A stretch of 36,760 bases of DNA from Paracoccaceae bacterium. GTDB taxonomy: Bacteria > Pseudomonadota > Alphaproteobacteria > Rhodobacterales > Rhodobacteraceae. The notes beneath the pieces are model-generated. The model worked only from the letters and a program-made list of their open reading frames with translations, was not told the DNA's origin and ran no database searches. The stretch lies in NCBI GenBank assembly GCA_018223085.1, contig JAAEZB010000028.1, positions 1 to 36,760 on the forward strand, in the 5' to 3' direction. Shown piece after piece: positions 1,717 to 26,780 of this stretch. Position numbers and translations under genes: made by a program. Numbering within the stretch: position 1 is the stretch's first letter; every line of letters begins with the position of its first letter.

Positions 1717-1771
1717 TTTCACGCACCCCCACCACCGCAATACCGACGTAATACCGACGCGATACAGACGT
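1717..1771 (+). repeat. 11-bp tandem-repeat element, copy A
   Basis: Three contiguous 11-bp units (1739-1749 AATACCGACGT, 1750-1760 AATACCGACGC, 1761-1771 GATACAGACGT) fit RATACMGACGY. They are preceded by a leader TTTCACGCACC and CACCACCGC. Related arrays occur near 8.5 kb and 26.7 kb. Here the array points away from the DUF808 start codon and towards the 3' end of coaD, so it is not in the orientation of a shared promoter. A GTTAACCATTT sequence follows at 1794-1804. Confidence 0.75.
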
Positions 1772-1822
1772 GCGTTTTCGCCCGCCGCGCCGCGTTAACC
1801 ATTTGGCCCGACTCAGCGCATC

Positions 1823-8467: not shown

Positions 8468-8520
8468 TTCGAAAACCGCACCGACGCAATACAGACGCGA
8501 TGCACTCGCGATACAGACAA
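8468..8520 (+). repeat. 11-bp tandem-repeat element, copy B
   Basis: Four contiguous 11-bp units, two of them degenerate, fill the gap between two genes: 8477-8487 CGCACCGACGC, 8488-8498 AATACAGACGC, 8499-8509 GATGCACTCGC, 8510-8520 GATACAGACAA. They are preceded by TTTCGAAAA. The element starts right after the dehydrogenase stop codon. The end of its last unit supplies the AAGGG that acts as ribosome-binding site 7 nt before the next ATG. Copies A and C lie near 1.7 and 26.7 kb. Confidence 0.7.
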
Positions 8521-8530
8521 GGGTTTTCAC

Positions 8531-9571
8531 ATGGGTGACATTAATATCCGCAAGGTTGGCCAGACCGGCCGCATCACCTTTACCCGCCCCAAAGCGCTCA
8601 ACGCGATGAGCTATGAAATGTGCATCGCCATCGAAGATGCACTGGACGCTTGGGCGACGGATGATGAGGTCAAGATGATTGTCATCGACGCCGAGGGCGA
8701 AAAAGCCTTCTGCGCCGGGGGCGACATTGCCGAACTCTACGAGACCGGGAAAGCCGGAAACTTTGCTTTTGGACAAAAATTCTGGGCTGATGAATACAGA
8801 ATGAATGCCAAAATGTTTGAATTTTGCAAACCGGTTGCAAGCTTCATGCAGGGCTTTACGATGGGTGGCGGCGTCGGAGTGGGCTGTCATGCCTCCCATC
8901 GTGTTGTGGGTGACACAAGCCAGATCGCCATGCCGGAATGTGGCATTGGCCTCGTGCCGGACGTGGGCGGTTCCTACATCCTTGCCCATGCCCCGGGCCG
9001 TTTCGGCGAATACCTCGGCCTGACCGCGTCTCGCCTCGGAGCTTCTGACGCAATTTTTGCAGGATTTTCAGACTACTACATCCCAGAGTCAAAGTGGCCC
9101 GACCTCATCGCCTCGCTCGAAGAAACCGGCGACTGGACCCTAATCGACGCCGCCGCAGGGACAGCCCCGGAGGGGGTATTGGCCGCACAGGAAAACGAGA
9201 TCAACGCCTTCTTCGGCGGAGAAACCCTGCCCGATATCCTCAACGCCCTGAATGGTAGCGACTCCACCTTCGCCACAGACGCTCTGAAAAAACTCTCGCG
9301 CAATTCCCCCCTCGCCATGGGCTGCGCCCTCGAAATCATTCACCGCGTGCGCGGCTCCGAAAGCATCCGCCCTGCCCTAGATCAGGAATATCGCTTTACT
9401 TTCAGGGCGATGGAGCATGGCGATTTCCTCGAGGGGATCCGCGCCCAGATCATCGACAAGGATCGCAATCCTACTTGGAAACACGACCTCAACGCGCTTC
9501 CGGCCGTCGCCGTAAGCCAGATGCTGCTGCCTTTGGGAGAGGCAAAGCTCACATTTGAAAAGGGAGATTAA
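8531..9571 (+). CDS. Enoyl-CoA hydratase/isomerase family, 3-hydroxyisobutyryl-CoA hydrolase-like
   Basis: A 346-aa crotonase-fold protein. Its length and long C-terminal extension fit the 3-hydroxyisobutyryl-CoA hydrolase branch rather than plain enoyl-CoA hydratases of about 260 aa. This enzyme releases CoA from 3-hydroxyisobutyryl-CoA so that MmsB can oxidise the free acid. Visible marks are RPKALNAMSYEM (19-30), the oxyanion segment FCAGGDIAELY (60-70), FTMGGGVGVG (109-118), and MPECGIGLVPDVGG, in which Glu136 and Asp144 match the catalytic pair. The C-terminal EGIRAQIIDKDRNPTW is typical of the branch. Only 3 bp separate its stop from mmsB. Codons around 8758-8845 are unusually AT-rich compared with the rest of the gene. 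Confidence 0.9.
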   Translation: MGDINIRKVGQTGRITFTRPKALNAMSYEMCIAIEDALDAWATDDEVKMIVIDAEGEKAFCAGGDIAELYETGKAGNFAFGQKFWADEYRMNAKMFEFCKPVASFMQGFTMGGGVGVGCHASHRVVGDTSQIAMPECGIGLVPDVGGSYILAHAPGRFGEYLGLTASRLGASDAIFAGFSDYYIPESKWPDLIASLEETGDWTLIDAAAGTAPEGVLAAQENEINAFFGGETLPDILNALNGSDSTFATDALKKLSRNSPLAMGCALEIIHRVRGSESIRPALDQEYRFTFRAMEHGDFLEGIRAQIIDKDRNPTWKHDLNALPAVAVSQMLLPLGEAKLTFEKGD

Positions 9572-26691: not shown

Positions 26692-26746
26692 ACGTCGGTA
26701 TCACGTCGGTATTGCGTCTGTATCGCGGTGGTGCATGTTTCGAAAA
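26692..26746 (-). repeat. 11-bp tandem-repeat element, copy C
   Basis: Three perfect 11-bp units, read on the minus strand, fit RATACMGACGY (26692-26702, 26703-26713, 26714-26724). They are preceded on that strand by TTTTCGAAA, GCACC and ACCGC, the same leader types as in copies A and B. It lies between convergent genes (bactofilin and a cyclophilin), where no promoter is needed. GTTAACCATTT occurs nearby on the plus strand (26757-26767), as it does near copy A. Confidence 0.75.
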
Positions 26747-26780
26747 GGCCATGGCCGTTAACCATTTCGGGCAGCCGCGA

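Follow-up and report, generated by a model that had tools for sequence, protein, structure and literature searches.

Dispersed arrays of an 11-bp direct repeat in Shimia and related Rhodobacterales as candidate landing sites of a head-to-tail DNA-binding protein

What is the role of a short direct repeat that recurs between genes, in constant register, at three distant places of a single stretch of DNA? The window analyzed here, 36,760 nt of a Shimia draft genome (3.0 Mb in 145 contigs, 89% complete), holds three such sites, referred to as arrays A, B and C. The initial annotation described them as tandem 11-bp units of the form RATACMGACGY, and proposed that a protein could occupy all units of an array from one face of the DNA.

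Anatomy of the repeated element

Array A is located on the + strand and opens with a degenerate leader unit, CCCACCACCGC (1728..1738), recovered by sequence reading as well as by enriched-word and per-position analyses. Three full 11-bp units follow, AATACCGACGT, AATACCGACGC and GATACAGACGT (1739..1771, the individual units being 1739-1749, 1750-1760 and 1761-1771), then the trailer GCGTTTTCGCC (1772..1782, + strand) and a GTTAACC (1794..1800, + strand), 22 bp and hence two helical turns after the last unit. Array C, on the - strand, displays the leader unit TGCACCACCGC (26725..26735) and three full units, GATACAGACGC, AATACCGACGT and GATACCGACGT (26692..26724), and direct reading reveals a GTTAACC 5' of it, on the strand opposite to the array (26757..26763, + strand). 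Both sites agree with the original description, while array B (+ strand) departs from it in its degenerate middle unit. Here, a weak leader unit, CGCACCGACGC (8477..8487), precedes three units (8488..8520), the first of which fits RATACMGACGY (8488-8498), followed by GATGCACTCGC (8499-8509) and GATACAGACAA (8510-8520). The array scores 27/33 in the threshold search and 28 at its best register; its orthologue in genome G017 is a clean array with a score of 31. The 3' end of array B is positioned 10 bp ahead of the ATG at 8531.

All three arrays are intergenic by codon-usage gene calls, with DUF808 and coaD flanking array A, acyl-CoA dehydrogenase and enoyl-CoA hydratase flanking array B, and bactofilin and cyclophilin flanking array C. 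A two-unit pattern searched with up to 3 mismatches yielded 6 matches in the window and 0 in 100 dinucleotide shuffles, and a de novo scan of the spacers for three-copy tandem repeats of period 7-18 returned period 11 only (3 hits). The Rfam search of the window gave 0 matches above the gathering score. The open-access literature, with subscription journals and preprints mostly outside the scope of the search, also returned nothing on this repeat, congruent with the earlier remark that no described element is known to carry the consensus.

Comparing many copies, the element consists of a degenerate first unit, usually three RATACMGACGY units and a GTTTT-containing trailer. Among 162 arrays from mixed genomes, 110 have three good units, 35 have four, 14 have two and 3 have five. 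The weak first unit lacks RAT and keeps ACCGACGC, often as CACCACCGC in the window's genome. The leader that had been noted ahead of the arrays (GCACC / CACCACCGC) is indeed conserved, as a half-matching extra unit, and its TTTC is present at A, B and C while absent among the enriched upstream words listed.

A second motif, GTTAAC, accompanies about a quarter to a third of the arrays, being found within 60 bp upstream of 35/140 and downstream of 43/140, against a background of 4% of 1036 60-mers. Downstream copies sit 10-12, 21-24 or 33-35 bp past the last unit in 55 of the 58 cases detected within 60 bp among 202 arrays examined, the distance ranges being read off the data themselves. The corresponding Rayleigh score is 0.80 at period 11, with the best value among the periods tried, 0.88, at period 12. 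Upstream, the distances peak at 24-30 bp and the phasing is weaker (0.37). This helical phasing strengthens the predicted binding from one DNA face. The association with the arrays is weaker in G292, a genome where the arrays show a fixed upstream TTAAC and, about 20 bp later, a CGTTCG ahead of the leader unit. In 400 kb of the array-less genome G024, eight GTTAAC were located in spacers, five of them divergent and none convergent. Unlike the CtrA site, TTAA-N7-TTAA, the repeat unit holds no TTAA, and GTTAAC is only a phased neighbor of some arrays.

Spread, conservation and turnover

The anticipated abundance in the genome was confirmed: with up to 3 mismatches, the two-unit pattern matches 188 times in the window's genome and the reversed pattern once. 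These matches represent at least 64 separate arrays, and array B is not among the matches listed. The proposed search of related genomes for adjacent units gave positives at ≤1 mismatch in 22 of the 25 Shimia genomes, with zero in the remaining three (G004, G023 and G024). At family level, 25/394 genomes and 24/393 genera match at this threshold, some at one or a few places only, leaving 369 of the 393 genera without a match. In a class-wide draw of 240 genomes, again at ≤1 mismatch, 3 match, all in the family, as opposed to 0/237 other alphaproteobacteria. As most genera of the family display no match, the function is either dispensable there or differently encoded. De novo tandem scans returned six period-11 hits and one period-10 hit in 400 kb of G292, and in 400 kb of G024 a single unrelated period-11 hit, with no variant 11-bp family. 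G349, a single-contig genome, has 17 matches in forward and 4 in reverse orientation. The ten of these that are listed extend across 2.15 Mb and share one strand, with five of them containing the unit GATACTGACG or GATACGGACG.

Next, we assessed how long individual arrays persist. Array A adjoins coaD, in antisense orientation, in 18 of the 25 Shimia genomes (score ≥26/33, a level never reached in 1.2 Mb of reversed sequence). It is missing at coaD in G001, G018, G021, G004, G023 and G024, and the G017 contig begins inside the array, with two units visible. Over the 18 genomes (153 ungapped pairs), identity at this site amounts to 84% at core unit positions, 46% at degenerate positions and 34% in the flanks on either side, the site having been located by best consensus score, which favors the core identity. 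Array B, on the other hand, is in place in 3/25 genomes (G000, G003 and G017), the other 22 scoring ≤18. Of the 24 genomes testable for array C, three (G000, G003 and G016) carry it downstream of bactofilin with unchanged orientation, 645 bp away in G016, and the other 21 lack it within 1500 bp; the G017 contig ends at this place. Only array A of the three is thus widely kept, while B and C turn over, and their retention in so few genomes indicates that turnover is high. Across genera, the side and orientation of the array relative to orthologous neighbors coincide in 32 of 38 (non-independent) pairs; once nine pairs joining Shimia to two records of possible Shimia identity are set aside, they coincide in 23 of 29. 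The coaD identities and the cross-genus neighbors sustain the earlier view that the register is kept while letters drift, through selection rather than recent duplication.

The patchiness of arrays B and C would also be expected if the arrays derived from a small mobile or REP-like repeat, as functionless copies or remnants, with the promoter avoidance described below reflecting the purging of harmful insertions. Congruent with such an origin, the genes flanking array B are separated by 64 bp in the window and by 15-19 bp in G004 and G023 (11 of 25 spacers inspected), and the extragenic placement at 3' ends is reminiscent of REP elements. The two-unit pattern is furthermore present on four IMG/VR viral contigs (L288, L289, L290 and L291), where it may represent host contamination, a prophage flank or genuine phage copies; a BLAST comparison with plasmids and phages, using a consensus-like array as the query, returned no match, a weak test as the units vary. 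Several observations are nevertheless difficult to reconcile with mobility. The copies are not near-identical, because the units carry 48-53 bits but the flanks only 7-16 bits per 60 bp; core letters outlast the flanks at the coaD site; and the even spacing reported below would be unexpected. The sequence GAAAACC...GGTTTTC around array B had suggested terminal inverted repeats, but these were unsupported over 219 elements, with group means for flanking inverted repeats differing from permuted pairs by -0.13 to +0.35, and the share of scores ≥7 somewhat higher than in permuted pairs in three of four groups. REP and BIME elements are palindromic and have many extragenic copies at gene 3' ends. 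The arrays resemble them in having many extragenic copies that mostly are not between divergent genes, and differ in that no palindrome was found, one site has long been kept, the spacing is even and the copies vary. The lack of supported terminal inverted repeats and of near-identity also separates them from MITE/IS-derived repeats. Taken together, we consider a mobile origin rather improbable.

Gene context, spacing and strand

Genes were called with a custom codon-usage script, not a standard gene finder, and 160 arrays were placed relative to them: 140 in spacers between two genes, 8 in long spacers, 7 overlapping a gene and 5 without two neighbors. The 140 are distributed over 46 ++, 45 +-, 44 -- and 5 -+ spacers, and an earlier, overlapping set of 121 arrays over 46 +-, 39 ++, 27 -- and 6 -+ spacers, with 3 inside genes. 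The baseline (spacers >40 bp on loci of at least 7 kb, array spacers included) comprises 353 ++, 262 --, 226 -+ and 138 +-. Comparison of these counts demonstrates that divergent spacers are avoided and convergent ones favored. The initial claim that arrays always lie between genes hence describes the window well, but elsewhere there are exceptions, namely the 3/121 inside and the 7/160 overlapping called genes, as well as 1/33 overlapping in 1.2 Mb of G292.

This distribution bears directly on the possibility that an ordinary global regulator reading 11-bp direct repeats (OmpR/PhoB or MerR/CarH type) uses the arrays as operators to act on adjacent genes. The closest known system by design points in that direction: the operators of CarH, a MerR-family B12 photoreceptor, are reported to consist of three or four tandem 11-bp direct repeats bound on one DNA face and are found at carotenoid promoters with the consensus nnnnTnnACAn (PMC9304148); three or four tandem 11-bp direct repeats are shared by our arrays. 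Moreover, some arrays are positioned at start codons (array B and L023). An operator would, however, be poorly served by a placement with 5/140 arrays between divergent genes and 45/140 between convergent ones, and both orientations are common in tandem spacers, in the present set as well as the earlier one. The reported CarH consensus fits the unit in no rotation when compared by hand; the arrays also differ from CarH operators in forming dozens of mostly non-promoter sites, and the neighbors of the window arrays include no carotenoid gene promoter. We regard an operator function as unlikely.

The enrichment at 3' ends raises the alternative that the arrays end or insulate transcription, as protein road-blocks or as elements acting at the RNA level. 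By eye, array C is framed by the terminators of the two convergent genes next to it, and array A sits past the coaD terminator; in the wider set, terminators are found both before and after the array. Using a simple rule for intrinsic terminators, we detected them at 45% and 53% of array-bearing convergent 3' ends (of 47) and at 49% of array-free ones (of 134). A replacement of intrinsic terminators by arrays was hence not supported, as convergent spacers are not depleted. Terminators are slightly less frequent in tandem spacers carrying a sense array (29% of 38) than in array-free ones (35% of 350), in line with a road-block, whereas they are more frequent where the array is antisense (63% of 43). 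In addition, RNA folding of five window stretches revealed no structure (z 0.57 to -0.98), and both orientations occur, leaving this alternative a very slim chance.

The arrays are further characterized by their spacing. Along 1.2 Mb of continuous G292 sequence, 33 arrays are separated by a mean gap of 36.5 kb with a CV of 0.63, as compared to 0.97 for arrays placed randomly in non-divergent spacers, where 0.26% of 5000 draws were as even (p = 0.0026; p = 0.0027 against uniform placement). Similarly, 22 arrays up to 845 kb of contig G002:C18, to which point the array list is complete for ≤3 mismatches, have a mean gap of 38.2 kb and a CV of 0.56 (p = 0.0023 against uniform). Within these two stretches, the arrays are accordingly distributed more regularly than expected by chance; at 2.5-2.9 Mb of G292 they look sparser among the matches listed. 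The initial annotation had mentioned neither the avoidance of divergent spacers, nor the even spacing, nor the complete absence from some species.

A strand bias is also evident, with 164/182 arrays, and 28/33 in G292, reading RATACMGACGY on the locally C-rich strand. Among the matches listed for G002:C18, the 22 arrays of the first 0.85 Mb share one strand, the strands being mixed further along the contig. Such a pattern would be anticipated for polar signals of a replication- or segregation-linked DNA motor, in the manner of KOPS or Chi. This functional polarity looked strong, yet it was accounted for by base composition: as A and C are abundant in the unit, local composition is by itself enough to predict 106.5 of 132 orientations, and the observed number is 110. 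With the bias explained in this way, we make no claim of a polar function. KOPS itself, GGGNAGGG, was analyzed separately and is largely bipolar in 40 sampled G292 windows, with few exceptions, such as at 1.80 Mb. The arrays share the strand bias along the chromosome with KOPS, but are 33-44 bp long rather than an octamer and appear about once per 36 kb, a density far below that of Chi or KOPS. An inverted-skew segment near 1.69-1.74 Mb of G292 that keeps inverted arrays likewise disfavors a motor signal, and we judge this reading very improbable. The segment, at about 1.688-1.744 Mb of G292:C1, comprises ~55 kb with inverted fourfold-site skew in a mostly negative stretch and may be an inversion; two inverted arrays fall inside it and another, at 1.763 Mb, lies outside. 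In the window, the + strand GC skew between 24000 and 28000 changes sign near array C, from negative to positive. The idea of a skew boundary at arrays that this flip suggested was abandoned, since only a small difference was left once genes on the two strands were treated separately (-0.30 and -0.22 on the left, -0.24 and -0.17 on the right).

Candidate role and known systems

Fixed-register repeats, a phased motif, core letters outlasting the flanks and the absence from three species together point to sites for a head-to-tail protein, and promoter avoidance combined with even spacing suggests a role at the level of the chromosome. With roughly even confidence, we interpret each array as the landing site of a specific putative head-to-tail DNA-binding protein, dispersed and most likely serving chromosome architecture; protein binding, oligomerization and the architectural role are what we infer from sequence. 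The putative protein would bind head to tail along one helix face, one protomer per 11-bp unit, occupying the weak first unit and usually three good ones. At some sites, a second factor or domain may read GTTAAC at a distance of one to three turns. Dispersed about every 36-38 kb where measured in parts of two genomes, and located mainly at the 3' ends of genes and away from promoters, the sites would then most likely act as domain anchors or topological barriers, and not control neighboring genes. In a more specific form, which we advance only tentatively, they could be evenly spaced domain anchors, gripped on one DNA face by an oligomer spanning ~four turns that docks at some of them with a GTTAAC-reading partner in helical phase, and would delimit domains of ~36 kb. 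Such a system would belong to a subset of the Rhodobacterales and would have disappeared entirely from some Shimia species.

By use, the closest systems are the Noc (NBS), SlmA (SBS) and MatP (matS) sites, palindromes present in tens per chromosome that avoid or mark the terminus and serve chromosome or division biology, not promoters. The arrays are comparable in number, also amounting to tens of sites per chromosome, but are head-to-tail direct repeats instead of palindromes. A Noc-like depletion at the terminus was not supported, as arrays occur around the G292 terminus inferred from KOPS (near 690, 761, 853, 964 and 1012 kb). Plasmid parC iterons, bound by ParR head to tail, likewise are 11-bp direct repeats, but are confined to one locus with about ten repeats, whereas the arrays do not constitute a single plasmid centromere of that kind.

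To our knowledge, sequence-defined, evenly spaced sets of chromosome sites are rare in bacteria. If the arrays anchor domains, deleting or moving sites would test what sets domain size, a long-standing question. Shimia with and without sites offer a natural control, and a comparison of their gene content should expose the binding protein. Weighing against the preferred interpretation are the turnover of arrays B and C, an evenness that derives from two part-genomes, and the presence of GTTAAC at a minority of arrays. Array B and the L023 array also fit poorly with an architectural role, being situated at start codons; the last unit of L023 (G000:C59) runs straight into the start codon (GATACCGACATG), and these few arrays may act on translation.
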